The notes under the pieces are model-generated. The model was not told where the DNA came from and did no database searches. It saw only the letters and a program-made list of their open reading frames with translations. Shown here in pieces: positions 1,468 through 55,395 of a DNA stretch of 64,000 nt. Within the stretch, counting starts at the first letter, position 1, and the number at the start of each line of letters is the position of its first letter. The translations under genes were made by a program, and so were the position numbers. The DNA is from Chloroflexota bacterium (GTDB taxonomy: Bacteria; Chloroflexota; UBA6077; SHYK01): contig DASRDP010000093.1 of NCBI GenBank assembly GCA_035652535.1, forward strand, positions 1 through 64,000, read 5' to 3'.

Positions 1468-3192
1468 CTACCGCAGCTCCCAGGTGTGGACGTTCCACGT
1501 CGTCGAGCTGTCGGGCGAGGCCACCTGCGGCCCATGGAGGGCCGCCACGTACGCGGTGATTCCCGGATTGAAGTTGATGGCGATCGCGGGCAGCTCATCG
1601 CTGAATATGTGCACCATCTGCGCGATCTGATGGATGCGCTCGGTTCGGTCGAGCGTCGTATTGAACGCGTCTACGAGGCGATCGTACTCCGCGTTCGACC
1701 ACGAGCTTCGGTTCGTCCCGTTCCACCGGTTCTCCGGTCGCGGCGTTCCGGCCGTGCCGAGGTTCGGCAGCGAGTTCTCGCCGAGCGGTCCGCCGGTGGT
1801 GAACATCGACGGAAAGGTGGCGCGGATCTGCGGGTCCTGCGCCTGAGCCGCCGGCAGCACGGCCTCCTGGATATCGAACCCCGCCTGCCTCCACACTGAG
1901 GCCATGATCGATTGCTCCGCCTCGTTCTGCGAGTTCTGAATGACCTTCAGCTCGGGGGACAGCTTGCCTCCGGGCGGACTCGTGAAGAACCCGTCCGCGC
2001 CTTTCGTGAACCCTGCCTCGTTCATGAGCTGCTCGGTCCGTCTGACGTCGAACGGATACTTGACGGTGGCCGCGTCCACCTCGGCGTAGTAGTCCACGGT
2101 GGGCGGAATCACCGAATCGGAGTTGATCCCCTGCCCTTCGTAGATGCCATCGTCGATCGCCTGCTTGTCAACGGAATAGGCAAGGGCCTTGCGGACGCGG
2201 ATGTCGGTGAGAGCGCGCGGCGACACCCGCTCGGGATGAAGCTGGATCTGGGTGTATCGCCACAGCCCCGGCGTCACGAGGACGCTCCCGCCCTGGTTCG
2301 CGGCCCACTCGCGCTTGATGACGGTCGCCTGCTGGAAGTAGATGGCGTCGTCCATAAGGACCTGCACGGCGCCCGATAGGAGGCTCGCGAGCGCCGTGTT
2401 CGCGTCATTGATGAACAGCAGCTTGATTCGATCGATCTTGGACCGGCCGAGGGCGTGCCCCCCGAAGGCCGACGCCTCGATGTAGGCGCCGGGCTCCCAG
2501 TGCTCGATCTTGAATGGCCCCAGGCCGATGTAATCCGTGGTCCAGAACGGGAGCGCGACGAAGGCGTCTGAGCTATTTTGCTGGAGCGCCGCCTCGAGGA
2601 TGTGGCGCGGCAGTGGCGGCAGGTCTCCGTAACCGAGAATCCCGGCTCGCGGGTAGGGACGCTTCCATCGGATCGAGACGGTTCGGTCGTCCTGGGCAAC
2701 GACATCCTCGATGAGCCCCTGAGGCGCGGCGCTGGAGATCCCGAAATCCGGCGTGGTGTAGGTGCGCCACGCAAAGATCACGTCCTCGGGCGTCAGCGGC
2801 TCACCGTCCTGCCACGTCAGTCCCGGCCGGAGCCGGTACACGGTCTCCATGCGCCCGTCCGGCGCGACTTGCCAGCTCTCCGTGTTGAGCTGCGGAAGGG
2901 ACTCGGCCAGGTACGGCTGCGCCGCCCCGCGATCGTCGATGATGGCGAGCCCCGCGTTGAAGAGGCGGATCGTGGCGCCGAGCGTCAGGCCGGCCTGCTG
3001 AAGCCCCTTGCCGGCGACGTATGCCGGCTCGACGCGGATCGCGGCGGTGAGCGTTCGCGGCTGTTGGCCCGCGGTCGCCGCGCCCTGAACCGCACCACCG
3101 GCTGTCGCCTGCGGTCGGCTCGCCGGTGCACAGGCGACGAGGACCAGCACCCCCAGCACGACGCTCGATGCCACACGCTTCGATCCGATCAT
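1468..3192 (-). CDS. ABC transporter substrate-binding lipoprotein, family 5
   Basis: This 574-residue exported lipoprotein belongs to the SBP_bac_5 (oligopeptide/dipeptide/nickel) family. A short signal peptide ends in lipobox LVAC with the lipidated cysteine at residue 21, followed by a Pro/Ala/Gly-rich linker. The family segment GLTWQDGEPLTPEDVIFAWR is clear. The protein ends in WNVHTWELR, a terminal motif shared by most of the binding lipoproteins in this window. It should capture an organic solute at the outer face of the membrane for an ABC importer, but no permease or ATPase gene lies nearby. It is divergent from the Rieske gene at 3403 across a 210-base intergenic region. The ligand cannot be read from sequence. 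Confidence 0.92.
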   Translation of the reverse strand: MIGSKRVASSVVLGVLVLVACAPASRPQATAGGAVQGAATAGQQPRTLTAAIRVEPAYVAGKGLQQAGLTLGATIRLFNAGLAIIDDRGAAQPYLAESLPQLNTESWQVAPDGRMETVYRLRPGLTWQDGEPLTPEDVIFAWRTYTTPDFGISSAAPQGLIEDVVAQDDRTVSIRWKRPYPRAGILGYGDLPPLPRHILEAALQQNSSDAFVALPFWTTDYIGLGPFKIEHWEPGAYIEASAFGGHALGRSKIDRIKLLFINDANTALASLLSGAVQVLMDDAIYFQQATVIKREWAANQGGSVLVTPGLWRYTQIQLHPERVSPRALTDIRVRKALAYSVDKQAIDDGIYEGQGINSDSVIPPTVDYYAEVDAATVKYPFDVRRTEQLMNEAGFTKGADGFFTSPPGGKLSPELKVIQNSQNEAEQSIMASVWRQAGFDIQEAVLPAAQAQDPQIRATFPSMFTTGGPLGENSLPNLGTAGTPRPENRWNGTNRSSWSNAEYDRLVDAFNTTLDRTERIHQIAQMVHIFSDELPAIAINFNPGITAYVAALHGPQVASPDSSTTWNVHTWELR

Positions 3193-3298
3193 TCACGTCC
3201 CCCATTCGCGATCATCACGCCAACCGTGCCATCCATATTACGCGCTCAGCGGGAGACGATTCCCGTCGTCGATGGCCTACGCGTGTCGCGCCCAGCGA

Positions 3299-3304
3299 TA
3301 TACT
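3299..3304 (+). promoter_or_regulatory. Putative -10 box (TATACT)
   Basis: TATACT lies in the divergent gap between the lipoprotein gene and the Rieske gene, 98 bases before the Rieske ATG. I see no TTGACA-like hexamer 16-18 bases upstream. The same hexamer precedes the Rieske genes at 7644 and 13012, which is the main reason for the call. Confidence 0.3.
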
Positions 3305-3402
3305 GCCATCACAGTCGCCAGGAATCGTCGGACCAGCGGGCGGGAAGCTCGTCGAGCGAGCGCTCTTGCAGCAGGTCGGGCGCGATTCAGGGGGGAGGGT
3401 CC

Positions 3403-4668
3403 ATGCTCACGAAGGAAGAAAACGCGCTGCTGACCCAAATCGGACCAGGCACGCCCTGCGGCGAGCTGCTCCGACGTTACTGGCATCCAGTGGCCCTCAC
3501 GCGTGAGCTGACCGACGATCGGCCCATGCGGCGGGTCAAAATCCTCGGCGAGGAGCTGGTCCTTTTCCGCCAGCCCGACGGCGCGTTCGGGTTGGTGGGC
3601 GAGCACTGCTCGCATCGCGGGACGTCGCTATACTACGGCTTCCTTGAGGACGGCGGGATCCGCTGTCCATACCACGGCTGGCTTTACGACGCCGTGGGGC
3701 GCTGCGTCGAGCAGCCCTTCGAGCCAGCGCAATCGATGCTCAAGCACACCCTTCGCCACCCCGCGTACCCGGTCCAGGAGCTGGCCGGCATCCTGTTCGC
3801 CTATCTGGGGCCGCCCGAGCGCCAGCCGCTGCTTCCCCGATGGGACGTCCTGGTCTGGGAGGGCGGCATCAGGACGCTGCGCCGCCAGCAAACCCTCTCG
3901 TGCAACTGGCTGCAGGCGGAAGAGAACTCGGCGGACGTCACGCACACGTACTTCCTCCACGGCCACGCGATGAAGGCCAAGGGGCTGCAGGGCGGTCAGT
4001 ACTACTACCGGCCCATCGAGCGCTTCGGGTTCCAGCCCTTCGAGTTCGGCCTGCTGAAAAGCTGGCACTACCAGGACGGCGGCACCCGGTTCGGGGAGGA
4101 GCGCGGAGGCGGAAACCCGCTCATCTTCCCGAACATGCTGCGCGTCCGCGAGGGCGCCTGGCATGCGATCCACTGGCGGGTACCCATCGACGACGCCCAC
4201 ACCGAGATCTTCTGGGCGGGCTTCATGCGTGACGCGGACGTGGAGCGCGGCCGATGGCTCGCCGACGCGGACCGCGAGGGCGAGGTTCGTCTCACGGGAC
4301 CCAACGGCGAATACACGATGGACACCTTCCCCAGCCAGGACACGATGGCGTGGGAGACCCAGGGCGCGATCTTCGATCGCGGCCGCGAGCATCTCGGAGC
4401 GTCCGACCAGGGCATCGCGCTGTTCCGGCAGATGCTGCGCGACCAGATCGAGGCGGTCCAGCGGGGCGACGACCCGATGGCGCTCGTCCGCGATCCGGAG
4501 AGGAATCGCATCATCGAAGTGCCCGAGTGGGTCGCCGAGTTCGAGTCGCCCGACCTGACCGACCTAAGCGGCACGAGCCCCACGTTCACGTCCATGGCGG
4601 ACGTCTTCGACGAGCGGCACCAGGTGTTCGAGGTGCCGTTTGGCGCCGCGCGGCCGCGAGCGAGTTAG
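3403..4668 (+). CDS. Rieske aromatic ring-hydroxylating oxygenase, alpha subunit
   Basis: This 421-residue oxygenase belongs to the phthalate-dioxygenase/O-demethylase group of homo-oligomeric Rieske enzymes. The [2Fe-2S] ligands are C69-x-H71 and C88-x2-H91. The mononuclear iron motif is D178, H181, H186 in NSADVTHTYFLH, and a QGAIFDRGREHLGASDQGI block follows near the C-terminus. The ATG at 3403 is chosen because it follows GGGGGGAGGG and gives the MLTKEEN start seen in its paralogues. The open frame extends further upstream, but that part is not conserved. The enzyme needs an electron-donating reductase, and none is present here. It is followed after 10 bases by an EutA-like gene. The substrate is unknown; hydroxylation and O-demethylation are both possible. 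Confidence 0.93.
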   Translation: MLTKEENALLTQIGPGTPCGELLRRYWHPVALTRELTDDRPMRRVKILGEELVLFRQPDGAFGLVGEHCSHRGTSLYYGFLEDGGIRCPYHGWLYDAVGRCVEQPFEPAQSMLKHTLRHPAYPVQELAGILFAYLGPPERQPLLPRWDVLVWEGGIRTLRRQQTLSCNWLQAEENSADVTHTYFLHGHAMKAKGLQGGQYYYRPIERFGFQPFEFGLLKSWHYQDGGTRFGEERGGGNPLIFPNMLRVREGAWHAIHWRVPIDDAHTEIFWAGFMRDADVERGRWLADADREGEVRLTGPNGEYTMDTFPSQDTMAWETQGAIFDRGREHLGASDQGIALFRQMLRDQIEAVQRGDDPMALVRDPERNRIIEVPEWVAEFESPDLTDLSGTSPTFTSMADVFDERHQVFEVPFGAARPRAS

Positions 4669-4678
4669 TCCGGGCCGC

Positions 4679-6283
4679 ATGGTCAGCTCATTCACACACG
4701 AGCACGGCGGCGAGGGCGTCCACCGTCATGGGCCAGGTGAGTCCCACTCTCACGCGATCGAGAGCTTCGCCGAGCACGGCCACTTCCACGAGGAAGACCT
4801 GGTCGCCCTCATGGCGCAGGACACGACCATCGACGCCATCTCCACCGCGGGGATCAATCCAGGGTGGATGGTCCTCAACAGCGTTGGCATCGACATCGGG
4901 TCGTCGACCTCGCACCTTACCTTCTCGCGCCTCTTTCTCGAGCGTCAGGGGCTGGAGATGTCCAGCCGTTTCGTCACCGTCCGCCGGGACGTGCTCTATC
5001 GCTCACCGATCCAGCTCACCTCCTATCTGGACGTCGAGACTATCGACGTGGATCTCCTCTCCGCCTTCGTTCGCGAGAGCTACGAACGGGCCGGCGTCGA
5101 TCCGTCGGAGATCCACACCGGCGCGGTGATCTGCACGGGCGAGGCCGTTCGCAAGCGCAACGCCGAGGCGATCACGCGCCTCTTCTCCCACATGGGCGGA
5201 AAGTTCGTGTGCGCAACGGCCGGTCCTCGGCTGGAGGCGATCCTCGCCGCCCACGGCTCCGGATCGGTAGCCCGATCGCGGGATCGGCTCACCGTCATGA
5301 ACGTCGACGTCGGCGGGGGTACGACGAAGATCACGGTCGTTCGCGATGGCGCGATTCTGGAAACGGGGGCCATCAACGTCGGAGCGCGCCTCCTGGCCTG
5401 GGACCCGGCCACGGGACGTCTGAACCGAATCGAGGTGAGCGGGCGCCGCATCGCGGAGGCCATCGGCATCGCTCCCGAGATCGGCGGGACCCTGTCGGAG
5501 GACGAGAAGTGGCGCTTCGCGCGGTCCCTGGTCGACCGCCTGCTCGCCTACCTCGCCGGCGATTCGACGAGCCCGCTCATCGAGGCTCTGCTCATCACCG
5601 GGCCGCTGGTGTTCCGAGGGCGCGTCGACGAGGTGATTTTTTCCGGGGGCGTCGGCGAGTTCATCTACGATCGCGAGGCGGCCGACTACGGGGATTTTGG
5701 TCGCTACCTCGCCGCCGAGATCCAACGGCGGATCTCCGACTTCCCCGGTCCCGTCGCCGAGGGGGCCGAGGCGATCCGCGCGACCGTCATCGGCGCCTCC
5801 CAATACACCGTTCAGGTCTCCAGCAGCACCATTTTTCTATCGGATCCGTCGATGCTGCCCATGCGCGATTTCCAGGTCGTTGCGCCGCGATTTTCCGGCG
5901 CCGAGGCCGACGAGGGATCCGTCGCCCTGGCCATTACGGATGCGATGGCGCGCTACGATCTCCTGGACGCGGCCACGGCGCATCCGGTGGCGTTGTACCT
6001 CGCATGGCCGCACGAGACCTCGTACGCGAACCTCTCGATGCTCGCGGGCGGCATCGTTCGAGCGCTGGCGCCGGTCAACGACGGCAAGCCCCTGGTGCTT
6101 ATCTTCGACCGCGACATCGGCGCGCTGGTCGGGGCCCTCATCAAGGAGGACATGGAGGTCCCGAACGCAGTCGTCGCGGTCGACGAGGTCGAGGTGAAGG
6201 AGCTGGACTTCGTGGACGTGGGCCAGCCCCTGGGCAATCGATCGGCGGTGCCCGTCGTGGTGAAGTCGCTGATCTTCGAGTAG
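4679..6283 (+). CDS. EutA-like ASKHA ATPase with His-rich N-terminus
   Basis: This 534-residue protein resembles the ethanolamine ammonia-lyase reactivating factor EutA, which uses ATP to expel damaged cobalamin from its target. The ASKHA phosphate-1 motif VGIDIGSSTSHLTFSRL is at residues 69-85 and phosphate-2 MNVDVGGGTTKITV is near 207-220. The adenosine-type motif FSGGVGEFIY follows later. Residues 1-37 hold nine histidines in H-x-H pairs (7/9, 15/17, 23/25, 33/35/37), suggesting metal binding. The ATG at 4679 lies 10 bases after the Rieske stop, so the two genes are probably one operon. No eutB or eutC is present, so the partner is probably not ethanolamine ammonia-lyase. A second copy lies at 32900-34651. 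Confidence 0.85.
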   Translation: MVSSFTHEHGGEGVHRHGPGESHSHAIESFAEHGHFHEEDLVALMAQDTTIDAISTAGINPGWMVLNSVGIDIGSSTSHLTFSRLFLERQGLEMSSRFVTVRRDVLYRSPIQLTSYLDVETIDVDLLSAFVRESYERAGVDPSEIHTGAVICTGEAVRKRNAEAITRLFSHMGGKFVCATAGPRLEAILAAHGSGSVARSRDRLTVMNVDVGGGTTKITVVRDGAILETGAINVGARLLAWDPATGRLNRIEVSGRRIAEAIGIAPEIGGTLSEDEKWRFARSLVDRLLAYLAGDSTSPLIEALLITGPLVFRGRVDEVIFSGGVGEFIYDREAADYGDFGRYLAAEIQRRISDFPGPVAEGAEAIRATVIGASQYTVQVSSSTIFLSDPSMLPMRDFQVVAPRFSGAEADEGSVALAITDAMARYDLLDAATAHPVALYLAWPHETSYANLSMLAGGIVRALAPVNDGKPLVLIFDRDIGALVGALIKEDMEVPNAVVAVDEVEVKELDFVDVGQPLGNRSAVPVVVKSLIFE

Positions 6284-6286
6284 CGC

Positions 6287-7525
6287 TCAGTCCCGCGCCG
6301 GGCACTGGTGTGAGAGCAGCACCTCGCGCCGCTCCCGCCCCGACTGCATGATGGCGAGGCACACCTCGAGCGTCGCCATGCCCCAGTGCCCATCGTGGCT
6401 GATGGGCTTGCCCTCGACAACGGCGTCGTACAGCTCGCGCAGCTCCGCGTTGCCGGTCGACCGACCCCGCGCGACCGGTACCTCCCGGCGGCCGTCGTCG
6501 CCGTACACGTAGAGTCCCTCCGGCGACTGGCGCACGTCGCCGCGCTCGCACGAGGCCAGCGTGATGCCGAACCAGCTCCGGTCCGGCGGAAGCGGGCTCC
6601 CGTCGGCCGAGCTGTTGCCCCGCGGCGGCTCGCCCGACTGTGCGCCGAACCGCATCGCCTCTTTCTCGGCCTCGACGTTGACCGAGCCCGCGCGCAGGCC
6701 CTTGCGCACCGCGACGGCCTGCTCGTCCGAGTAGAGGCGGCTCCCGAACCCCCAGGTCAGCTCTGACGTGTAGAAGTACCCGTAGCCGCTGTAGGCGATC
6801 GTCGCCGACGCCCCGTCCTCGAACTCGAGGAAGGCCGAGTAGTTACCGGGCGCCGGCCGTTCCGGCAGCCACTGGCCCACGGCTGCCCGCACGCTGCGGA
6901 CCATCCCGCCGCCGAGCACGCGAATCGTGTCGATGAGGTGCGGACCGTGGCGATAGACAACGCCGCCGCCGAGGGTAACATCGATCTCCTCCGGCATGCG
7001 TGGCTTCAGGAGCCAATCGGTGTAGAGCCAGCAGTGCACGGCGTAGAGGTGGCCCAGCTCGCCCGAGCGCACGACCCGCTTCATGGCCTGGATCGTCGGG
7101 TGCAGGCTATAGGTGTGGCCGCACACCATCTTCACGTTGTTTCGCTCGGCCGTCTCCACCATCCGCTCGGCCTCGGCCATCGAGAGGGCCATCGGCTTCT
7201 CGCAGACGACGTGCTTCCCGCGCTCGGCCGCCATGACGATGTGCTGGCAGTGCCGATTATTGGGCGTGGCCACCCAGACCACGTCCACGTCCGGATCGTT
7301 GCACAGATCTTCGACGCTGGTGTAGACGTGGCCGCCATATTGCGTCTGGAAAGCCTGCAGCGCGCCGGTCCGGAGGTCGGCCGCCGCGGCGAGGCGAACC
7401 TCGGGCATCTTCGCGAGCCCGGGTATGACCTGCGACCCGCCGACGCCGAGGCCCGCGATGCCAACCCCGAGGGTTCGCTTGGGTGCTCCGCCCGTCTCGC
7501 GTGCCCGCTCGTCGACACTCGCCAC
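6287..7525 (-). CDS. Gfo/Idh/MocA-family oxidoreductase, second copy
   Basis: This 412-residue dehydrogenase is paralogous to the one at 243-1463. The Rossmann motif GIAGLGVGGSQV starts at residue 22, and EKP with its catalytic lysine is at 109-111. The substrate domain repeats the GGGVVYRHGPHLIDTIRVLGG pattern in shortened form. The GTG at 7525 is chosen because GAGGTGAAAC precedes it at good spacing; the longer open frame upstream has no family similarity. It is divergent from the Rieske gene at 7644 across 118 bases. In phthalate operons the 4,5-cis-dihydrodiol made by the Rieske enzyme is rearomatised by a dehydrogenase of this family. The same pairing is plausible here but unproven. Confidence 0.85.
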   Translation of the reverse strand: MASVDERARETGGAPKRTLGVGIAGLGVGGSQVIPGLAKMPEVRLAAAADLRTGALQAFQTQYGGHVYTSVEDLCNDPDVDVVWVATPNNRHCQHIVMAAERGKHVVCEKPMALSMAEAERMVETAERNNVKMVCGHTYSLHPTIQAMKRVVRSGELGHLYAVHCWLYTDWLLKPRMPEEIDVTLGGGVVYRHGPHLIDTIRVLGGGMVRSVRAAVGQWLPERPAPGNYSAFLEFEDGASATIAYSGYGYFYTSELTWGFGSRLYSDEQAVAVRKGLRAGSVNVEAEKEAMRFGAQSGEPPRGNSSADGSPLPPDRSWFGITLASCERGDVRQSPEGLYVYGDDGRREVPVARGRSTGNAELRELYDAVVEGKPISHDGHWGMATLEVCLAIMQSGRERREVLLSHQCPARD

Positions 7526-7643: not shown

Positions 7644-8837
7644 GTGATCACGAAAGAAGAGAACGACCGCCTCACGCAGATCGGTCCCGGCACCCTCATG
7701 GGCAACCTGATGCGGCGATACTGGCACCCGGTCATCGCGACGGCCGCGCTGGACGAAGACCCGGTGCAGCCGATCCGGCTCCTCGGCGAGGACCTCGTGC
7801 TCTATCGCGACGAGGCGGGCAAGCTCGGGCTCGTGTCGCACCGATGCGCGCATCGCGGCATCTCCCTCGCCTACGGCATCCCGCAGACCAACGGCCTTCG
7901 TTGCGCCTACCACGGATGGGTCTACAACGAGCAGGGCCAGGTGGTGGACATGCCCTTCGAGCCGGCCTGCCTGCCCCTGAAGATCACGGCGTACCCGGTG
8001 CAGGAGCTGGGCGGTCTCATCTTCGCGTATCTCGGGCCCGCGCCGGCGCCACTGCTCCCCAGGCACGAGCTGTTCGTGCGGGAGGATTTCGACAAGTCCA
8101 TCGAGATGACGCCGTTGCCCTGCAACTGGCTGAACGCCATGGACAACTCGCTCGACCCGGTCCACTACGAGCATCTGCATGGGCATTACGGCAACTACGT
8201 CGCCAAGAAACAGGGGCGAAAGCCACCGATGAATCCGGTACGGCACCTCAAGATCGACTTCGACGTGTTCCGGTACGGAATCTATAAGCGGCGGCTGATG
8301 GAAGGCGAGCCCGAGGACATCGACGACTGGACGACCGGGCACCCGATCCTCTTCCCGAACACGCTGCTGGTCGGCGACGCGCGCGTGGCGCGCTATCAGA
8401 TCCGCGTGCCGATCGACGATACGCACACCATGCACTACAACTACAACGTGTTCTCCCGCGCGCCCGACGCCCCGCGGAAGTGGGAGGGCATTCCCGTCAA
8501 GCGTACGACGATCTACGAAGAAAACGGCGACATCGTGGCCGACACCGTGTTCAAGCAGGACGCGCTCGGCTGGGTGGGCCAGGGACCCGTCTCCGACCGG
8601 ACCGTGGAGCACCTGGTGACGTCCGACCGCGGGATCATCCTGTACCACAACATGCTCATCGAGCAGGCGGAGAAGGTGGCGCGGGGTGAGGACCCGATGG
8701 GGATCGTGCGCGACGAGGACGAGAACGAGCCGATGATCCGGATCCGGTGGGAGGAGCGCGCGAAGGAGGCCTACTGGCCGGGCGGTCGACCGGTCCAATA
8801 CTTCACGCCGGCCGCGGAGGCCCGCCCCGTCGGGTGA
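7644..8837 (+). CDS. Rieske aromatic ring-hydroxylating oxygenase, alpha subunit (tandem-family copy 1)
   Basis: This 397-residue protein is one of four close paralogues (with 11671, 13012 and 16719). The Rieske cluster ligands are C68, H70, C87 and H90. The mononuclear iron site is D171, H174, H179 in DNSLDPVHYEHLHG. The C-terminal block VGQGPVSDRTVEHL ends in TSDRGI, as in phthalate-type oxygenases. The GTG start at 7644 follows GAGGGGGAATGTGCA and gives MITKEEN, matching the paralogues. The ring after RCAHRG (ISLAYGIPQTNGLRCAYHGW) is almost invariant among the four copies. It is divergent from a dihydrodiol-dehydrogenase-like gene, a plausible next step in the pathway. Confidence 0.93.
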   Translation: MITKEENDRLTQIGPGTLMGNLMRRYWHPVIATAALDEDPVQPIRLLGEDLVLYRDEAGKLGLVSHRCAHRGISLAYGIPQTNGLRCAYHGWVYNEQGQVVDMPFEPACLPLKITAYPVQELGGLIFAYLGPAPAPLLPRHELFVREDFDKSIEMTPLPCNWLNAMDNSLDPVHYEHLHGHYGNYVAKKQGRKPPMNPVRHLKIDFDVFRYGIYKRRLMEGEPEDIDDWTTGHPILFPNTLLVGDARVARYQIRVPIDDTHTMHYNYNVFSRAPDAPRKWEGIPVKRTTIYEENGDIVADTVFKQDALGWVGQGPVSDRTVEHLVTSDRGIILYHNMLIEQAEKVARGEDPMGIVRDEDENEPMIRIRWEERAKEAYWPGGRPVQYFTPAAEARPVG

Positions 8838-8964: not shown

Positions 8965-9780
8965 TCACGCCGTCAGAAAATCGCGCACGATGGTGTTGAA
9001 GCGCTCGGCCTGGTCCCACTGGACCCAGTGCCCGCAGCGATCGAACACGTGCAGCTCCGCGTTCGGGATCTGCTGGAAGAGGAGCTGCGACCGCTCCAAC
9101 GCGACGCCGCTGTCGTTCGCGCCCCACAGCAGGAGCACCGGGATGCGCAGGTTTTTCAGATCCTCGTACACGGGCCGCGGCGGCTTCACGCCCCTGCGGA
9201 GCTGCTGCGTCTCGTAGTTCTTGCCGATGCTCATCTGGTAGCGCTCCGTCACCAGCTCCTCGGTCACGCGGTCCTGGTTGTAGAGCGTTCCCCGAGTGAG
9301 GGCCCAGCAGTTCTCGAGCGACGGCTCGTACGAGCCGGTGAAGTCGGCGTGCTGCCTCGCCAGCTCCTCGGCGGCCGGCGAGCCCCGGGGCGCCAGCGTC
9401 CCGCTCGACACGAGCACCAGCCGCCGGACCCTCGGGTCCTCCAGCGCGATTCGTGCGACGATGTAGGACCCCTGTGAGTTCCCCATCAGGTCGAAGCTGT
9501 CGAGCCGCAGGCCGTCGATGAAGGCCTTCGCGTGCGCGACCCGGTATTCCAGCGTGTAGTCCCCCGGCGCATCCGTTCGCCCGTATCCGGGCTGGTCATA
9601 CGCGTAGACGGAGAAGCCCGCCTCCGCGAAGAAGTCGACGTTGTTCCCCCAGTTCACGCGCGCGCACGCCCCGGGCGATCCGCCGTGGACCATGATCAGC
9701 GGATGCCCGACGCCTTTGTGAATCCAGTACGTCTTGAGTCCGTCGACGTCGCTAAAGGTGCCCGGCTCCGTCGTAATCAC
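8965..9780 (-). CDS. Alpha/beta hydrolase, meta-cleavage-product hydrolase type
   Basis: This 271-residue hydrolase would cleave a C-C bond in the product of extradiol ring opening. The oxyanion-hole segment VHGGSPG is at residues 31-37. The nucleophile is S102 in GNSQGS. The acid is in LLLWGANDSG, and the histidine is in CGHWVQWDQAERFN, a signature close to BphD/MhpC-type enzymes. The gene directly follows the LigB dioxygenase gene at 9785, whose stop is 4 bases before this GTG, so the two are probably translationally coupled. An ATG at 9813 would add 11 residues inside the upstream gene but has no good ribosome binding site. Ester hydrolysis remains an alternative. Confidence 0.85.
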   Translation of the reverse strand: MITTEPGTFSDVDGLKTYWIHKGVGHPLIMVHGGSPGACARVNWGNNVDFFAEAGFSVYAYDQPGYGRTDAPGDYTLEYRVAHAKAFIDGLRLDSFDLMGNSQGSYIVARIALEDPRVRRLVLVSSGTLAPRGSPAAEELARQHADFTGSYEPSLENCWALTRGTLYNQDRVTEELVTERYQMSIGKNYETQQLRRGVKPPRPVYEDLKNLRIPVLLLWGANDSGVALERSQLLFQQIPNAELHVFDRCGHWVQWDQAERFNTIVRDFLTA

Positions 9781-9784
9781 GCGG

Positions 9785-10774
9785 TCACCGCCAGTAGGCG
9801 AACGCCATCCCACACCCAGTGCCCGCGGGCGAGCGGTAGGCAGGGATGTAGTCGCCGATCAGGTGCACGTCCATCGGCTCCATGGCCCCGGCCACCGTGA
9901 TCCAGTTGCGGATCTCGGACGTGCCCAGATTCAGTCGCTCGCGCGGGAGATTGCGCAGGGCATCCGCGTCCTTTTCCATTACGCCGTCGAGCGTGGCGTG
10001 GTCGATCTCCTCGTCGAGGATCGTGTGGCTGAGACCCCCCGAGGCGACGACGGCGACCCGCTTGTCGCTCTCCCAGGACTCAATCGCCTCCCGCAGCCGC
10101 TGGCCCAGCGCGTAGCAGCGGGCGGGCGTGGGCTGGTTTGGCGGAAAGAAGGTGTTGATCATGAAGGGGACCATGGGAACGTCCCCGTTGGGCAGCATGA
10201 ACTCGTACAGGAAGGTGAAGGCGTGGCCCAGGCCCACCTCTTTCTTGAGTTGGTTGGAGCACGCGATGTCGAACCCGTCGTCGCGCAGGCGATCGATCAG
10301 GTGCTCGGCCAGCGCCGGCTCGCAGGGGTGGTCTCCCCACACGTTGAGCCGCTCCGCGATGGCCTCCTGGATCTCATCCAGCCGCGCGGCATTCCACATG
10401 CCCGAACCGGACCGCGCGTTATGCCCGCGCCGGGTCACCGCGACGGATTCCCCCCGGTAGACGCAGAACATCGGCATCAGCTCGTCGTGGAACTGCTCGT
10501 GCTGATCGTCGCCGACGACGACGAGAACGTCTGGAACCGCCTCGGCCAGGACCTGCGAGAGCTGCTTCAGGGACGTCTGGCACGCATCGTACCGCTCGCG
10601 CAGTCGGGCATCGGCTAGCTCGGAGTCCATGTCCGGCTTCGCGCGTTTCAACAAGTCCGCGTAGTTGATACGGCGATCCGTCTCGTCTTTCTCGCGCAGG
10701 GCATACCACCCCTCGAGGGGCAGGCGCAGCTGCGGCGCGTGTGGGGTCGCGATGCCAACAACGATTTCGGCCAT
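9785..10774 (-). CDS. Class III (LigB-type) extradiol ring-cleavage dioxygenase
   Basis: This 329-residue non-haem Fe(II) dioxygenase belongs to the protocatechuate 4,5-/gallate dioxygenase superfamily, which opens a catechol ring next to its hydroxyls. The first iron histidine is H12 in ATPHAPQL. The conserved GDDQHEQFHDELMP segment (about 88-101) and the GGLSHTILDEEIDH segment carry the other active-site residues. The ATG follows AAGGAGCGAGATC. A hydrolase gene overlaps its end, and a decayed binding-protein remnant lies just upstream. The copy at 22657-23643 sits next to an intact binding-protein gene in the same order. The catechol substrate is not predictable from sequence alone. Confidence 0.88.
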   Translation of the reverse strand: MAEIVVGIATPHAPQLRLPLEGWYALREKDETDRRINYADLLKRAKPDMDSELADARLRERYDACQTSLKQLSQVLAEAVPDVLVVVGDDQHEQFHDELMPMFCVYRGESVAVTRRGHNARSGSGMWNAARLDEIQEAIAERLNVWGDHPCEPALAEHLIDRLRDDGFDIACSNQLKKEVGLGHAFTFLYEFMLPNGDVPMVPFMINTFFPPNQPTPARCYALGQRLREAIESWESDKRVAVVASGGLSHTILDEEIDHATLDGVMEKDADALRNLPRERLNLGTSEIRNWITVAGAMEPMDVHLIGDYIPAYRSPAGTGCGMAFAYWR

Positions 10775-22656: not shown

Positions 22657-23643
22657 CTACTTCCAATATGCGAAGGTCATCCCGCACCCCGTCGCGGCCG
22701 GTGAGCGGTAAGTCGGCACATAGTCGACCAGCGTCATGTCGAGCCCCTCGAGCGCTGCCCCCGCGATGATCCAGTTCCGAATCTCTGATGTCCCGTGGAC
22801 CATCTTCTCAACCGGCAGGGCACGGAGGCGATCCGGGTCCCGCTCCATCAGCCCATCGATGGTGCGCCGGTCCAGATCCTCGTCGATGATCGTGTGGCTG
22901 AGACCGCCGGACGCGATGACGGCGACGCGCGCGTTCGAGTCCCAGCGCTCGATGGCTGCGCGGACGGACTGGCCCAGCGCATAGCAGCGCTTCGGTGTGG
23001 GCGCGTTCGGCGGATAAAACGTGTTGACCATAAAGGGGACCATCGGAATGTCGCCCTCGGGCAGGAGCCGTCGATAGACGAAGCTGAAAGCGTGCCCGAT
23101 CCCGACACCGTCGCGCATATGGTTCGACCGCGCGATGTCGAACCCGTCGTCGCACAGCTCGCGGAGCAGATGGTCGGCGAGAGCCGGATCGGCGCGGAAC
23201 TCTTTGCCCTCTTCGGCTTGGTCGCGGCCGCCCTCCACCGAGCGCCATTCCGTGCTCGTGCTGACCGGCGGCGCGCCCGCCCGCCTTCCGCGGTGGATGG
23301 CCATTGTCTCGCCATTGTAGATGCACAGCATCGGCATGAGGTCGTCGAGGAACTGCTCGTGCTGATCATCGCCGAAGACGAGCATAACGTCCGGGCGCGT
23401 ATCGCGCAGCAGCTCCCCAAGGGCGCCGATGGCGCGCTGGCATGCCTCATCGCGCTCCCGGAACTTCTCGATCGTCAGCTCTTTTTCGAAGCCGGGCCGT
23501 GTCTGCCGAACACGCTCGGCCAGCTCCCGATAGTTCATCCGCGAGTCGCCTTCGTCCTTCGCCTGAAGAACCCGCCACTGTTCGCCGGGGATCCCGAGCT
23601 GCGGACTGTGCGACGTCCCAATGCCGAGAACGACCTCTGCCAT
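22657..23643 (-). CDS. Class III (LigB-type) extradiol ring-cleavage dioxygenase, second copy
   Basis: This 328-residue paralogue of the protein at 9785 has iron histidine H12 in GTSHSPQL, the GDDQHEQFLDDLMP segment and GGLSHTIIDEDLDRR. An insert of Gly/Arg/Ala after MAIHRG distinguishes the two copies. The ATG follows AGGAGGTGAATT, one of the strongest ribosome binding sites in the window. It lies between a binding-lipoprotein gene (70 bases upstream) and the RidA gene on the same strand. With the two Rieske genes, the RidA gene and the aldolase gene downstream, it forms a set able in principle to oxidise and cleave an aromatic ring. Confidence 0.88.
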   Translation of the reverse strand: MAEVVLGIGTSHSPQLGIPGEQWRVLQAKDEGDSRMNYRELAERVRQTRPGFEKELTIEKFRERDEACQRAIGALGELLRDTRPDVMLVFGDDQHEQFLDDLMPMLCIYNGETMAIHRGRRAGAPPVSTSTEWRSVEGGRDQAEEGKEFRADPALADHLLRELCDDGFDIARSNHMRDGVGIGHAFSFVYRRLLPEGDIPMVPFMVNTFYPPNAPTPKRCYALGQSVRAAIERWDSNARVAVIASGGLSHTIIDEDLDRRTIDGLMERDPDRLRALPVEKMVHGTSEIRNWIIAGAALEGLDMTLVDYVPTYRSPAATGCGMTFAYWK

Positions 23644-31173: not shown

Positions 31174-32883
31174 TCAGCTCCCGCCGGCCGTCCAGCGGTG
31201 CGCATCCCACACGTCGCCCGGTGAGCTGACGTTTTTCAGGCGGCTGGACACCACCGTCGGTGAGATGTCCCAGAACATGCCAAGCACGACGAGCTGGCTC
31301 GTCATGATCTGAACGATCCGGCCCAGCACCTGCATTCGCTCGGCCACCGGCACGGTGACAAAGTATCGATCGATAAGCGAATCCAGCTCCTCGTTCTTGT
31401 AGCGCGGCCGGTTGATGCCCGTGTAGTTGTTCTCCGGCAGCGGCGTGTAGCCGCCATAGAAGCGCTCGACGTTCTTCGCGCCTCCGGGCTGGCGCACGAC
31501 CTCGAACGCTGGCCGCGTCGCGCGATACTCGCGGTCCGACTCGCGCTGCTGCGGCACCGCTACCTGGTCCACCCCCACGCCCACCTGCTGCCAATCGTCC
31601 GCAAGCGCGTACATCGTCTTCATCTGCGTGTCGTCGGTGGCCGTGCTGCGAATCTCGACCGTCAGACGCTGGCCGGTCGCGTCGCGGAACGTTCCGTCCG
31701 ACCCGCGAACGTAGCCAAGCCCCTCGATCGTCTGCGCGGCCGCCGGTGGATCGTAGGCGTACTTGACGATACTCGACTCGATGGCGCTCCTCTCGCTGGC
31801 GGACTCGTTTACGATGCAGTCGGCAATAGGGGCGAGCCCGCCCAGCAGACTGTCGATGAGCTGTCGGCGATTCGCGCCCTGCATCAGCGCCCGGCGGAAC
31901 TGGACGTCGGCGACGACGGCCGGATTGGGGTTGATGAACTGCGGATACGCGCCGAGGTACGTGGTCGGCGTGCTGTGCTCCACCTTTCCATCGCGCCACT
32001 GGTCCGCGAGCTGCGCTCCCCACTCATAGGACAAGCGGCCGCCCAGGGTCAGGTCCACGCCGCCGGAAAGCACGTTCGCCGCCATCGCCGAGGGGTCGGG
32101 AATAAACTTCACCTCGATCTGGTCGATCTGAGGCCTCCCCAGGACGAACGCATCGTTCGCGTCGAGGATCACGTGGGTCCCCGCTTCCCATTCACGAAGC
32201 TTGAATGGGCCAGTTCCGACAAACTCGCGGTTCCAGTAGGGGAGGTTGACGAAGTCTTCCTTGTCGGTCGTGTAGGTCTTCTCGAGCAGATGTCGCGGCA
32301 GCGGGAGGGCGCGAGCGTTGGTGAACATCGTGTCCGCTTCGATGAACGGCCGCTTCCAGTGGATCGTGATGGTCTGCGTATCCGGCGCCTCGACCCGGTC
32401 GACCGAGCTGTATGCGACGTTGCGAAAGATCGGCAGCTCGGCATCCTGTTCCACGCTGGCGGTGAAAAGCAGATCCGCTGATGTGAAGGGCGTCCCGTCG
32501 TGCCAGGCGGCGCCTGATCGAATCTTCCACGTCGTCTGCATCGTACCGTCGGGATAGACGACCCAGAGCCCGTTCTCCACGGACGGCACCGCTTCCGCGA
32601 GCTGCGCGTGGAGTGCATCCGTCGAGTCCTGGATCGCGAGGCCGGCGTTCAGCAGCGTCTCGGTCTCCGAGACGCCGGGCACGCCTCCGGCGCCTGCCGC
32701 CGAGTTGAGCTTCGCACTCAGCGTCTTCGGGTCGCCGCGAATGCCGATGGCGATCCGCTTCGGGCCCGCCGTGGGCTGGGCAGGCGCTGGGCCACCGGGC
32801 GCCGAGCGCGTCCCGTCCGGCGCGGTGCAGCCGAGGACCACGAGCACGAGGGCAGCGCCAACGACGCGGGTGAGCGCCCCCAT
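31174..32883 (-). CDS. ABC transporter substrate-binding lipoprotein, family 5
   Basis: This 569-residue exported lipoprotein has lipobox VLGC with C19. The family segment GAAWHDGTPFTSADLLFTAS is clear, and the end WDAHRWTAGGS is a degenerate version of the common terminal motif. The ATG is close to the hydrophobic core, giving a compact signal peptide. It lies only 16 bases downstream of the EutA-like gene on the same strand, so the two are very likely cotranscribed. This associates an extracytoplasmic ligand-binding protein with a cytoplasmic His-rich ATPase. The 196-base convergent gap downstream has GC-rich hairpins but no gene. Confidence 0.92.
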   Translation of the reverse strand: MGALTRVVGAALVLVVLGCTAPDGTRSAPGGPAPAQPTAGPKRIAIGIRGDPKTLSAKLNSAAGAGGVPGVSETETLLNAGLAIQDSTDALHAQLAEAVPSVENGLWVVYPDGTMQTTWKIRSGAAWHDGTPFTSADLLFTASVEQDAELPIFRNVAYSSVDRVEAPDTQTITIHWKRPFIEADTMFTNARALPLPRHLLEKTYTTDKEDFVNLPYWNREFVGTGPFKLREWEAGTHVILDANDAFVLGRPQIDQIEVKFIPDPSAMAANVLSGGVDLTLGGRLSYEWGAQLADQWRDGKVEHSTPTTYLGAYPQFINPNPAVVADVQFRRALMQGANRRQLIDSLLGGLAPIADCIVNESASERSAIESSIVKYAYDPPAAAQTIEGLGYVRGSDGTFRDATGQRLTVEIRSTATDDTQMKTMYALADDWQQVGVGVDQVAVPQQRESDREYRATRPAFEVVRQPGGAKNVERFYGGYTPLPENNYTGINRPRYKNEELDSLIDRYFVTVPVAERMQVLGRIVQIMTSQLVVLGMFWDISPTVVSSRLKNVSSPGDVWDAHRWTAGGS

Positions 32884-32899
32884 GGTTTACGTGGGCAAG

Positions 32900-34651
32900 T
32901 CAGTGGGTGTGCGGGTGATCATGGTCGTGGTGATGGTCGTGATCGTGATCGTGATCGTGATCGTGATGATGATCGTGGTCGTGCTCGTGGTCGTGCGCAT
33001 GGGCGAGGGCACCCGCCCCGCGGACGAGGCCGGACTCGCGCTCGCGGGCCGTGCTGAATACGAGAGACTTCACCACGACCGGCACCGCGTGCACGTCCTC
33101 CAGCTCCTCGCCCAGATCGATGAAGTCCAGATCGCCGAGGGTCACCTCGTCGATGGAGACGATGTCGTAGTCCGGCAGCAGCTCGCGGGTCAGCAGGCTG
33201 CCGACCGCGCCCCCGATGTCCGTGTCGAACACGATGGTGAGGGGGATTTTCGCCGCGATGGTGTTCGGCATGGCGGCCACGATCGCCTCGGCGAGGGTCT
33301 TGACCCGGTCGTACGAGGGCTCCATTCGCCAGCGGAAGGAGAGGGCGACGGGTCGATCCCCCTCCTCGATGTCGAGGCGCTGCATCGCCTGCTCGATGGC
33401 CACCCTGGCCGACTCGACCGTATAGGTCCCATCGGGCATGACGGGCGCCACGACCTGGAGGTTTCGATGCGGCAGGAGCTCGGGCCGCGTGATGTAGATG
33501 GTGCTGCCGCTGACCTGCAGCGTGTATTGGCCAGCGCCGATGACGGTCGCGCGGATCATCTGCTCCGAGGTGTCCATGGGCACGCCGAGGCGTACGACGC
33601 GGTCGGCGACGGCCTTCCCCAGAAGGATGCCGAGATCGCCAAAGTTTCGCGGCTCGTTGCCGTACACGTACTCAGAGACTCCACCTGAGAAGCTCACGGA
33701 GTCAATGGGCCCCGTGTACGTGAGCGGCCCAGTGATCATGAGGCGATTGGCCAGCCGGCCGAGCGGGCGCCGCTCCGCCACGTTGTAGAGGCACTCGGCG
33801 AGCAGCTCGGCCATGGCCTTCTGGTGCTCGGGTGAGAGGGGCGCGCCCACGACGAGGGGGATGCCCAGCTCGTCAGCGATGATCTGCCCTGCCAGCTCGA
33901 TGCGACTCACCAGGCCCTTTTCATCCATCGCCACGAGCCGCGCACCGACGTTGATGGCCGCCGTCTCGAGGACCTCGCCGTCGCGACAGATGGCGAGCTT
34001 GGCGGTGCCGCCGCCCATGTCGATGTTCATCACCGTGTGCGACTGTCCATCGCGCCGGGCGGAGCGCGCGCAGGCGCCCGAGCCGTAGGCGGCCATGACC
34101 GCCTCCAGGTTCGGGCCGGCCACGGCGCACACGAACTTGCCCGCGTGCTCGGCGAACAACGCGGAGATCGCCTCGGCGTTGCTCTTCTTCGCCGCCTCGC
34201 CGGTGAAGATCGTGGCGCCCGTCTCCACGTCGTCGACGGTCATCTGGGCGTCCTTGTACACACCCTGGATGAAGCGCTCAAGCTCTTCTGTGTCGATCGT
34301 CGTTTCGTCGACGTACGGGGTGAGGAGGATGGGCGAGCGGAAGGTGATGCCTCGCTCCACGACCTTGAAGCGGCTCGAGAGGGCGATGCCCTGCCGCTCG
34401 AGGACGAGGCGGGAAAACATCAGGTGGGAGGTGGAGGACCCGACGTCGATGCCCACGCTGGTGAGGGTGATCCGGTTCCCCGCCTCCTCTGGCGTGAGGA
34501 TCACCATCTCCTCTTCGCCGGGATGGGTATGGAAGAAGGGGTCGTCGTGGATGTGCCCGAACATCCCCTCGGCATGGTCATGGGCGCCCCAGTGCCCGTG
34601 CTCGTGCATCTGGTCGGCCGTTGTCGGGTTTCCGGCTTCCGTTGGTTCCAT
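32900..34651 (-). CDS. EutA-like ASKHA ATPase with His-rich N-terminus and poly-(His-Asp) C-terminal tail
   Basis: This 583-residue protein is a paralogue of the protein at 4679. ASKHA motifs are TSVGIDVGSSTSHLMFSRL near the N-terminus, MNIDMGGGTAKLAICRDG in the middle and FSGGVSEYVYG after it. Residues 16-43 carry nine histidines. The final 34 residues alternate His with Asp, with 19 histidines in total. Such tails are known in nickel/zinc/cobalt handling proteins (HypB, CooJ, ZnuA-type loops), so metal binding is likely. EutA itself lacks such a tail. The ATG follows GAGGAGT. It is divergent from a Rieske gene and cotranscribed with a binding lipoprotein. With no ammonia-lyase genes present, reactivation or metal loading of another metalloenzyme is the likelier role. 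Confidence 0.87.
   Translation of the reverse strand: MEPTEAGNPTTADQMHEHGHWGAHDHAEGMFGHIHDDPFFHTHPGEEEMVILTPEEAGNRITLTSVGIDVGSSTSHLMFSRLVLERQGIALSSRFKVVERGITFRSPILLTPYVDETTIDTEELERFIQGVYKDAQMTVDDVETGATIFTGEAAKKSNAEAISALFAEHAGKFVCAVAGPNLEAVMAAYGSGACARSARRDGQSHTVMNIDMGGGTAKLAICRDGEVLETAAINVGARLVAMDEKGLVSRIELAGQIIADELGIPLVVGAPLSPEHQKAMAELLAECLYNVAERRPLGRLANRLMITGPLTYTGPIDSVSFSGGVSEYVYGNEPRNFGDLGILLGKAVADRVVRLGVPMDTSEQMIRATVIGAGQYTLQVSGSTIYITRPELLPHRNLQVVAPVMPDGTYTVESARVAIEQAMQRLDIEEGDRPVALSFRWRMEPSYDRVKTLAEAIVAAMPNTIAAKIPLTIVFDTDIGGAVGSLLTRELLPDYDIVSIDEVTLGDLDFIDLGEELEDVHAVPVVVKSLVFSTARERESGLVRGAGALAHAHDHEHDHDHHHDHDHDHDHDHHHDHDHPHTH
32905..33004. repeat. Low-complexity GATCGT-rich tract encoding the His-Asp tail
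   Basis: On the plus strand the sequence is dominated by repeats of GATCGT and GGTCGT, including at least four consecutive GATCGT units near 32940-32965. On the minus strand these read as alternating CAC/CAT and GAT/GAC codons. Slippage in such a tract would change tail length in steps of two codons without frameshift. Confidence 0.8.
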
Positions 34652-34918
34652 ACTCCTCTACGGTCCTCCGAGCTGAAAATCTCTGCCGTCACGGAACTGC
34701 GCAACGTGGGTCAGGCGCGACGTTACCGGCTCCATCCCGCCGATCGGGGGCCCGACGCGACGGAAGTCCTCGCACTCGGAGGCGGAGTCATTGGGTTCGT
34801 GATCCGCGAGGCTATTCTGGTGGTACGAGTGTATCTGCAATTGATGGCGATCACAAGAAAATCCAGGGCTTGACGGGAAGGCCGCCGGCGGGCCAGGATG
34901 GCATCATCGGAGGGGAGG

Positions 34919-36217
34919 ATGCTGAGCAAAGAACAGAACCAGCTATTGACCCAGACGGACCGGGGAACACCGATGGGCGAATTGATGCGCCGATACTGGC
35001 TGCCGGCGCTGCTCAGCGAGGAGATCCCTGCGCCGGATTGCCCGCCCGTCCAGGTGCGGCTGCTCGGCGAGGACCTGGTCGCCTTTCGCGACACGAACGG
35101 CCGAATCGGACTGCTCGCCGAAGCGTGCTCGCACCGGGGGACCAGCCTCTTCTACGGACGCAACGAGGAGGGCGGGCTTCGGTGCATCTATCACGGGTGG
35201 AAATACGACGCGGAGGGGCGCGTGCTCGACACGCCGGCCGAGCCGGCCGGCAGCACCTTCAGGCAGCGCGTGAGCCATCCCGCGTACCCAACACGCGAGG
35301 TGGGCGGGATGGTGTTCGCCTACATGGGACCGCCCGAGCGCGAGCCGCTCTTCCCCGCGTACGAGTGGGCCGGCCTCCCCGCGGAGCAGTGCTACGCGAC
35401 GAAGGCGATCCAGGACTGCAACTACCTCCAGGGGCTGGAGGGCGAGTGCGACTCGTCCCACCTCTCGTTCCTGCACCGCAGCTTCCGATTCGAGCTTCCC
35501 TCCGACACCGCGCCACGCTACGAAACGGAGGACACCGACTTCGGCGTCCGACTCATCGCCCTGCGCGACGCGCCCGGTGGCGCGACGTACGTCCGCGTGT
35601 CGTCGTTCATCCTCCCGGTCGCGTGCGCCGTCCCGGTCGGGCGCGGGGGCACGAGCCTCGATACCTCTGAGGGGTACGAGGTGCACTTCTATACGCCGAT
35701 CGACGATACACACTCGGCGCGATTCGACTTCGGGTTCAATCGGCGGCGGCCCATCGAGCCCGACGAGCCCGTGCGCCGGCGGGCCATCGGTCCCGGCTAC
35801 CGCCGCTTCGCCAACGCCGCGAACCACTATCTGCAGGACCGAGAGAAGCAGCGGACCGAGAACTACACGGGGATGACGGACTTCGGGTTCGGTAGCTTCC
35901 TCGCCCACGATTCCTGCGCGACGGAGAGCATGGGTCCGCTCTACGATCGGAGCCGCGAGCACCTGGGGGTCAGCGACCTAGGCGTCATCTCCGTGCGCAG
36001 GCGGCTGCTGGACGTGGTCCAGGCCTTCCAGCGAGGCGAGCAGCCGGCCCACGTGGTGACCGAGCCCGCCCGCAACGTGATGACCCACGTCACATCCTTC
36101 GCGGAGATCTCCGATGCGGCCAATTGGCGCGCCGAATATCCGGGCCTCGCGTCGTCGGCCGAGGAGGCGCGAGCGGACGTTCCCGGGCACGCGCGCGTTT
36201 CGGTGGCTTCCCGGTAG
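34919..36217 (+). CDS. Rieske aromatic ring-hydroxylating oxygenase, alpha subunit
   Basis: This 432-residue protein has [2Fe-2S] ligands C70, H72, C89 and H92. The iron ligands are D178, H181 and H186 in EGECDSSHLSFLHRSF. The C-terminal block SMGPLYDRSREHLGVSDLGV is typical of the larger phthalate-type oxygenases. The ATG at 34919 directly follows GGAGGGGAGG and gives MLSKEQN; an in-frame ATG seven codons upstream is less well placed. It is divergent from the EutA-like gene across 267 bases and is the closest visible relative of the Rieske remnant near 11300. It repeats the Rieske/EutA-like/binding-protein association of the 1.5-6.3 kb region. Confidence 0.93.
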   Translation: MLSKEQNQLLTQTDRGTPMGELMRRYWLPALLSEEIPAPDCPPVQVRLLGEDLVAFRDTNGRIGLLAEACSHRGTSLFYGRNEEGGLRCIYHGWKYDAEGRVLDTPAEPAGSTFRQRVSHPAYPTREVGGMVFAYMGPPEREPLFPAYEWAGLPAEQCYATKAIQDCNYLQGLEGECDSSHLSFLHRSFRFELPSDTAPRYETEDTDFGVRLIALRDAPGGATYVRVSSFILPVACAVPVGRGGTSLDTSEGYEVHFYTPIDDTHSARFDFGFNRRRPIEPDEPVRRRAIGPGYRRFANAANHYLQDREKQRTENYTGMTDFGFGSFLAHDSCATESMGPLYDRSREHLGVSDLGVISVRRRLLDVVQAFQRGEQPAHVVTEPARNVMTHVTSFAEISDAANWRAEYPGLASSAEEARADVPGHARVSVASR

Positions 36218-54297: not shown

Positions 54298-55395
54298 CTA
54301 TGCGCGAGCTCGGCGCCGCGGATGGTCCATCGTGACCTCCGCGCCGTTCTTCCGACACTCGGACTCGAAGCGATCAAAGACGTCCGGGTCCTCATCCTCG
54401 TACTCGATCTGCCAGCCGCCCTCTTTCTCGCTCAGGTCGGCTCCCTGGTGGTTCGCCATCGTGTTGCCGACGTAGAGGCCGCCGAAGGTGTACGCCAGAT
54501 AGCGCGCCGGCTCCGGGCCGCTGTTGAAGTGCTGATGGTACTGGCCATCCATCGGTGAGAAGATGGAGCCCTCTTTCCACGGCACCATCTGCTTTTCCTT
54601 GTCGCCCTTGAACCAGAGCAGCGAGTAGCCGATGCCGCTCAAGATGATGATCTCCGCGCCCGGGCCGTGATGGTGCGCCTTCTTGTAGCTCCCCGGAGGA
54701 AATTCGCTCATGTGGGCCGACATTGCATTGCCCGACATGACGAAGAACATGTTCGTGCCGCCGGCGCCCCGCTCCTTCCAACTCTCGAGCTTGAAGGAGC
54801 GCGTGTCGGGAATGAAGTTCGTCTGCCACCGGCGAATGCCGATCTTCTTGCCCGGATCGGTGAAGTAGTCGTCCTCGCCGCTGTATCGATCCTTGAACAC
54901 GTAGTCGGTGTTGAAGGGGAACTCCTGGTCCCGAACCGCGTTCATCTGCAGCGGGCACGTCGTCGCGGTGAAGAGTCGGGCCGGCTTCTGTCCATCGAGG
55001 TTGAAGTGCTGATAGTAGCAATTCAGGGGCGGGGAGAAGAGGCTACCGGCCTGCCACTCCACCGTCTGCTTCTTGGTCGATCCGGGCTGCCAGATGGTGG
55101 TGGCGCCGCGCCCATCGACCACGTAGTAGGTGGACTCGAAGAGGTGGTGCAGCTCCTTGGTCTGTCCGCCCGGGGCGATCTCCATCAGCCAGCCGTCGTT
55201 CTGCTCCTGGGCGGCGAGGTTGATGATGGCGCCCTTCTGCCCGATCCGCTCCCACGGCTTGACATCCGCGGTATGGAGATCCGAAACGTGGGAGCCCTCA
55301 TAGACGGGCACGCCCTCTTCGGCCTTCCAGAGCGAGTAGGCCGTGGGGCCCCGGGTCCAATTCGCGCGGGTGCTACCGTTTTCCTGCTCGGTCAC
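54298..55395 (-). CDS. Bicupin protein
   Basis: This 365-residue protein has two cupin domains. The C-terminal one has a full metal site: H241, H243 and E248 in KAHHHGPGAEIIILSG, then H287 in SPMDGQYHQHFN. The N-terminal one has LHHLFESTYYVVDGRG and SPPLNCYYQHFN, a less canonical site. GTG at 55395 follows GGAGGATCGATC. Bicupins include gentisate-type ring-cleaving dioxygenases and oxalate decarboxylases. The surroundings favour an oxygenase, but the C-terminal site alone does not decide it. It may cooperate with no neighbour: the next gene on this strand is 113 bases away. Confidence 0.8.
   Translation of the reverse strand: MTEQENGSTRANWTRGPTAYSLWKAEEGVPVYEGSHVSDLHTADVKPWERIGQKGAIINLAAQEQNDGWLMEIAPGGQTKELHHLFESTYYVVDGRGATTIWQPGSTKKQTVEWQAGSLFSPPLNCYYQHFNLDGQKPARLFTATTCPLQMNAVRDQEFPFNTDYVFKDRYSGEDDYFTDPGKKIGIRRWQTNFIPDTRSFKLESWKERGAGGTNMFFVMSGNAMSAHMSEFPPGSYKKAHHHGPGAEIIILSGIGYSLLWFKGDKEKQMVPWKEGSIFSPMDGQYHQHFNSGPEPARYLAYTFGGLYVGNTMANHQGADLSEKEGGWQIEYEDEDPDVFDRFESECRKNGAEVTMDHPRRRARA

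Follow-up and report, generated by a model that had tools for sequence, protein, structure and literature searches.

In salicylate and gentisate dioxygenases the metal site lies in the N-terminal of two cupin barrels. A cupin, EutQ, shares the eut operon with the gene for EutA, the ethanolamine ammonia-lyase reactivating factor, and it has no metal-binding histidines (PMC3483176). Genes for EutA-like proteins occur twice in the first 64,000 nucleotides (the window) of contig DASRDP010000093.1 from a Chloroflexota bacterium (GenBank assembly GCA_035652535.1), at locus 1 (1468-6283) and locus 2 (31174-36217). At each locus, genes for a Rieske oxygenase and a family-5 substrate-binding protein (SBP; SBP_bac_5 family) accompany the EutA-like gene, and the original prediction took the recurrence of this trio to imply a functional link. 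Comparison of sequences gives good support to a different association: the EutA-like genes encode a subfamily of EutA, ATPases with the ASKHA fold, that occurs in genomes lacking ethanolamine ammonia-lyase, and the conserved partner of this subfamily is a two-domain cupin (bicupin). The best reading of the two trios is juxtaposition of genes with a catabolic setting in common, rather than a dedicated machine of three genes.

PF06277 is matched over the whole length of both window proteins. Their scores, 320.6 and 357.3 bits, fall below the NCBIfam equivalog cut-off of 598 and are under the cut-offs of the other EutA models too. Bit scores separate true EutA (536-562) from full-length EutA-like proteins (300-432). 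EutB was not found in any of the 12 EutA-like carriers searched, including the genome of the window (G000), while in G054 it is encoded next to a true EutA. A diol dehydratase large subunit likewise gave no match in the 12 carriers, with control genomes equally silent. The ASKHA motifs GIDIGSSTSH, DVGGGT and FSGGVSEY are invariant in EutA-like proteins; these motifs and PF06277 membership would suit a protein still reactivating an adenosylcobalamin enzyme encoded elsewhere. However, given the missing EutB, the lack of any Rfam match, and hence of a cobalamin riboswitch, near the cassettes in 11 sources, and a consistent partner that is a cupin, we regard such a client as most improbable.

The modeled locus 1 EutA-like protein adopts the ASKHA fold (pLDDT 81.9). 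It matches exopolyphosphatase/GppA, FtsA and dehydratase activators at Z 13-17, with exopolyphosphatase/GppA the closest (Z 15-17); a sequence search found no solved EutA structure. The exopolyphosphatase/GppA matches could mean that the protein is itself a pathway enzyme or sensor, acting as a PPX/GppA-like or sugar-kinase-like kinase or phosphatase, rather than a chaperone. ASKHA members have this fold regardless of function, though, and the match to EutA is full-length with E values of 1e-115 to 1e-126, making an enzyme or sensor very unlikely.

To survey neighbors, we called genes with a custom script and clustered them around 79 EutA-like genes, the loci coming from several phyla. The most common neighbor is a bicupin of about 375 amino acids (82 proteins in 52 loci). 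In 35 cases its gene immediately precedes the EutA-like gene on the same strand, often overlapping it or at most 13 bases away. Among 301 Chloroflexota genomes, several of the genomes used being incomplete drafts, bicupin is encoded in 19 of the 20 with an EutA-like gene versus 2 of the 281 others (Fisher p 7e-27), and in none of the five that code for a true EutA (>530 bits). In eight low-copy genomes bicupin adjoins 12 of 15 EutA-like genes, with 0.025 expected; expected numbers here and below assume one gene in roughly 1000 bases. The two families also co-vary (mirror-tree r 0.70, p 2e-4). As the true pairing ranks best of 144 within-genome re-pairings, the species tree is removed as the cause. 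Co-occurrence, adjacency and co-variation thus together establish the partnership. Our literature search found no paper linking EutA to bicupins or Rieske oxygenases.

An AlphaFold2 model of the bicupin (pLDDT 89.6) most closely matches the gentisate/salicylate 1,2-dioxygenases 3bu7 (Z 21.4, rmsd 4.3, 273 aligned) and 2phd (Z 21.3), followed by oxalate decarboxylases (Z 19). Four His residues in the C-terminal barrel are conserved in 97-100% of 60 bicupins. The site in the N-terminal barrel is degenerate, with its His residues 53-77% conserved.

Histidine is also a feature of the EutA-like proteins. An N-terminal tail with at least three His is present in 59 of 91 sequences, His making up 8.8% of the tail versus 1.8% of the core. 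In the locus 1 model this tail is disordered (pLDDT <50 for residues 1-58). A few EutA-like proteins have a poly-His/Asp C-terminal tail, such as that of locus 2 with 19 His in 51 residues. At L080:6616-8376 and L085:6574-8376, EutA-like genes whose products have 23-29 His among their final 60 residues are each separated by a bicupin gene from another EutA-like gene that is divergent and His-less. The EutA-like genes of Asgard archaea (L056, L088) are placed outside the bacterial sequences and lack a neighboring cupin gene.

The bicupin association points to an ATP-driven helper role for the EutA-like protein, with metal-dependent oxygenases of aromatic breakdown as its clients in place of vitamin B12 enzymes. 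In the pathway we envisage, an aromatic acid would be imported, the Rieske oxygenase would hydroxylate or demethylate it, and the bicupin, by its predicted activity, would open the ring. The EutA-like ATPase may sustain the metal-dependent oxygenase by ATP-driven opening and exchange of metal or cofactor, as EutA does for EutBC, with its His-rich tail possibly holding the metal. We infer both the metal involved and, by analogy, the mechanism of its action on bicupin. With four EutA-like genes to at least 32 bicupin genes in this genome, a single ATPase may act in trans on many bicupins. That an EutA-derived ASKHA ATPase reactivates the bicupin oxygenases of aromatic-acid gene clusters, or metallates them, the window trios being juxtapositions, we put at about an even chance. 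We think it rather unlikely that the His-tailed ATPase is a chaperone dedicated to loading bicupins, and perhaps Rieske oxygenases too, with nickel, cobalt or iron and to reactivating them, which would make it a class of metallochaperone with no relation to HypB and UreG, both P-loop GTPases.

Several observations weigh against the favored reading of bicupin reactivation with juxtaposed trios. A large EutA-like clade has no His-rich tail. A delta/Binatia clade (L020, L030, L033, L034, L044) lacks an adjacent cupin, its neighbors being a MoxR-type AAA ATPase, a TPR/peptidase protein and a DUF4175 protein. Of the four EutA-like genes in this genome, three are without an adjacent bicupin gene. 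The conserved His site of the bicupin is in the C-terminal barrel. Finally, Rieske adjacency in this genome, at three of four EutA-like genes, is slightly above what crowding predicts.

The genes of the two loci and related features of the window are as follows.

1468..3192, minus strand: SBP_bac_5 family substrate-binding lipoprotein of locus 1, 574 amino acids (PF00496, E 5.7e-53)
3403..4668, plus strand: Rieske oxygenase of locus 1, LigXa_C type, 421 amino acids (PF00355 and PF19301)
4679..6283, plus strand: EutA-like ASKHA ATPase of locus 1, 534 amino acids (PF06277, E 1.7e-115)
4679..4872, plus strand: His-rich disordered N-terminal tail of the locus 1 EutA-like protein, about 65 amino acids, 9 His
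6287..7525, minus strand: GFO_IDH_MocA oxidoreductase neighboring locus 1 (PF01408)
7644..8837, plus strand: second Rieske oxygenase, two genes away from the locus 1 EutA-like gene (PF00355, PF19301)
31174..32883, minus strand: SBP_bac_5 family lipoprotein of locus 2, 569 amino acids (PF00496, E 2.5e-48)
32900..34651, minus strand: EutA-like ASKHA ATPase of locus 2, 583 amino acids, with a His-rich N-terminal tail and poly-His/Asp C-terminal tail (PF06277, E 1.3e-126)
34919..36217 (or from an ATG at 34898), plus strand: Rieske oxygenase of locus 2 with a full LigXa_C domain (PF19301, E 3.4e-32; PF00355)
54298..55395, minus strand: bicupin of the EutA-associated family, not adjoining an EutA-like gene here (cupin profile match 54301-55365, E 1.4e-131)

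Domain matches confirm both trios with the coordinates, spacings and orientations originally described. The EutA-like gene is on the plus strand at locus 1, where 10 bases separate the Rieske stop codon from its ATG, and on the minus strand at locus 2, where it is 16 bases from the SBP gene. The Rieske oxygenases of the two trios are of the LigXa type, with intact CxH..CxxH and DxxHxxxxH motifs and a LigXa_C domain. Among the Rieske genes, one for a LigB-type ring-opening dioxygenase (9785-10774) adjoins one for an HsaD/BphD-like hydrolase (8965-9780), and a gene resembling the former is at 22657-23643. A defense-system reading of the window was dropped as PADLOC gave no match.

That neighbors were rearranged yet retained, as the original prediction had it, does not hold in that form. 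In a tree of 66 Rieske oxygenases, 40 of which are additional ones drawn from this genome, those encoded next to EutA-like genes are scattered (5 changes among 6 genes versus a shuffled mean of 5.8). The locus 1 Rieske oxygenase is closest to L185 (65%), a paralog adjoining a bicupin gene on contig C139. The locus 2 Rieske oxygenase belongs to a clade with 99 support together with those of the alphaproteobacterial loci L049, L072 and L086. The two SBPs are only 28% identical and of different subfamilies, the nearest paralog of the locus 1 SBP within the window being encoded at 58186-59763 (51%). The Rieske tree and SBP identities rule out the trio as a duplicated unit. In a sister genus, no Rieske gene adjoins the orthologs of the EutA-like genes of locus 2 and contig C66 (L124_6, 79%; L125_7, 70%). 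In the closest relative of the locus 1 EutA-like gene (L013_8, 53%), a bicupin gene occupies the slot held by the Rieske gene in the window. The SBP gene is retained at one orthologous locus: the locus 2 SBP is the reciprocal best match (47%) of the SBP encoded beside the orthologous EutA-like gene in G002, from another genus, so this pair predates the genus. A dedicated three-gene unit is therefore not what we find, with the Rieske gene not kept at orthologous EutA-like loci and the SBP gene kept at one.

As originally interpreted, the EutA-like ATPase would be a dedicated Rieske reactivase with the SBP supplying substrate. The 10-base and 16-base gaps are in keeping with that role, as are the cassettes of Alphaproteobacteria and an adjacent Rieske gene at three of four EutA-like genes here and two of nine in G040 and L079. 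The link to bicupin is far stronger, however, and the adjacent Rieske oxygenases differ from one another besides not being kept, leaving a dedicated Rieske reactivase improbable. The functional link proposed for the trio is thus partly supported and, given the retained SBP pair and the alphaproteobacterial cassettes, not refuted, though the main partner of the EutA-like gene, the bicupin, had been missed.

The genome (4.45 Mb in 168 contigs) codes for four full EutA-like proteins, 132 Rieske oxygenases, at least 133 SBP_bac_5 proteins (199 candidates) and at least 32 bicupins (86-87 candidates), an extreme expansion of paralogs in these catabolic families. Ring-hydroxylating dioxygenases are also massively expanded in SAR202 group VII (PMC6946804). 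Two bicupin frames in this genome have a single in-frame TGA (contig C73:5715-6767 and contig C37:5227-6261), and similar single stops occur in bicupin copies of G001, G002, G007 and G040. These may be stops next to the matched stretch, decaying paralogs or assembly errors.

With Rieske and SBP genes so numerous, both are often beside EutA-like genes here and the trio recurs only partly beyond chance. Crowding alone might then account for the trio as a chance product of catabolic islands, with the EutA-like gene unlinked to either neighbor. The base rates favor this, as does a Rieske gene adjoining 26 of 133 SBP genes, or 20% (at least 133 SBP genes being encoded), and 7 of 32 bicupin genes. 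An SBP gene near an EutA-like gene is unsurprising at this density, and SBP adjacency is underestimated as the SBP gene set is a lower bound. EutA-adjacent Rieske oxygenases also form no clade. In Chloroflexota outside this genome Rieske enrichment is not clear, as a Rieske gene adjoins 2 of 22 EutA-like genes (0.66 expected, p 0.14) and lies no more than five genes away from 5 of them (3.3 expected, p 0.24). In this genome, on the other hand, the three-of-four adjacency has p 0.026-0.035 against an island-matched null and 8e-4 against a uniform 6%. The EutA-SBP pair is also conserved in G002 and a Rieske-bicupin-EutA cassette in Alphaproteobacteria, so association of these families with EutA-like genes is not confined to this genome. 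On balance, crowding as the sole cause is a serious contender that we hold somewhat short of even.

The alphaproteobacterial cassette encodes a LigXa-type Rieske oxygenase, a ferredoxin, one or more bicupins and an EutA-like protein. Phyllobacterium, Sinorhizobium and loci of the Xanthobacteraceae type have it in conserved form, and it was observed on plasmids of Phyllobacterium zundukense and Sinorhizobium mexicanum as well as in L049, L072, L086 and L081. The ferredoxin was not seen in L081, whose contig begins within the Rieske gene. Some cassettes also code for a class II aldolase or an amidohydrolase, and uptake receptors are encoded in these gene clusters. The cassette Rieske oxygenases are 75-90% identical, and these loci are a set of related cassettes rather than an independent count. 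Through them, a looser link between Rieske oxygenases and EutA-like proteins is real. The cassette, and the placement of its Rieske oxygenases in the locus 2 clade, suggest a shared pathway of Rieske hydroxylation or demethylation and ring opening by bicupin.

A search limited to motifs and BLAST found nickel genes close to the EutA-like genes of L049, L072, L086, L064/L067 and L193. In P. zundukense (L193:6911-11293) genes for NikR and a HoxN/NixA nickel permease directly adjoin the EutA-like/bicupin pair, and genes for HupE-like permeases adjoin the EutA-like genes of L049, L072 and L086. The HupE/NixA genes occur with the His-less EutA clade. As a hint to the metal, the nickel genes beside the cassettes are too few for a firm statistic and suggestive only.

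In many soil and marine genomes, genes annotated as the ethanolamine ammonia-lyase reactivating factor probably bear no relation to ethanolamine. If the EutA-like protein serves bicupins, reactivating ATPases extend beyond B12 enzymes. A large, unassigned oxygenase family, with at least 32 copies in one genome and likely degrading resistant aromatic matter, would then be testable through its partner.

Compared with known systems, the EutA-like proteins resemble EutA in the full-length PF06277 match and ASKHA motifs and differ in the absence of EutB from the genome, their sub-cut-off scores, His-rich tails and bicupin partner. HypB and UreE, nickel chaperones with nucleotide-driven or His-rich metal delivery, offer a working analogy, but HypB is a P-loop GTPase, UreE has the UreE fold, and both are unrelated to EutA-like proteins. 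The Rieske oxygenases of the trios are like LigXa-type O-demethylases and phthalate-type oxygenases in having a Rieske domain, LigXa_C and intact motifs; they differ in the massive expansion of their family. Unlike the single-barrel EutQ, the bicupin has two barrels and four conserved His, and its Pfam matches are to generic cupin families and not PF06249; the His residues and missing PF06249 match rule out bicupin as an EutQ. It shares the two-barrel fold with oxalate decarboxylase and MncA (Z about 19) at 14-15% identity, but its N-terminal barrel is without a conserved canonical site. With gentisate and salicylate 1,2-dioxygenases it shares the two-barrel fold (Z about 21 over about 260 residues) and a His metal site without the usual Glu, while differing in identity (12-14%), in the C-terminal position of its four-His site and in matching no curated family above cut-off.

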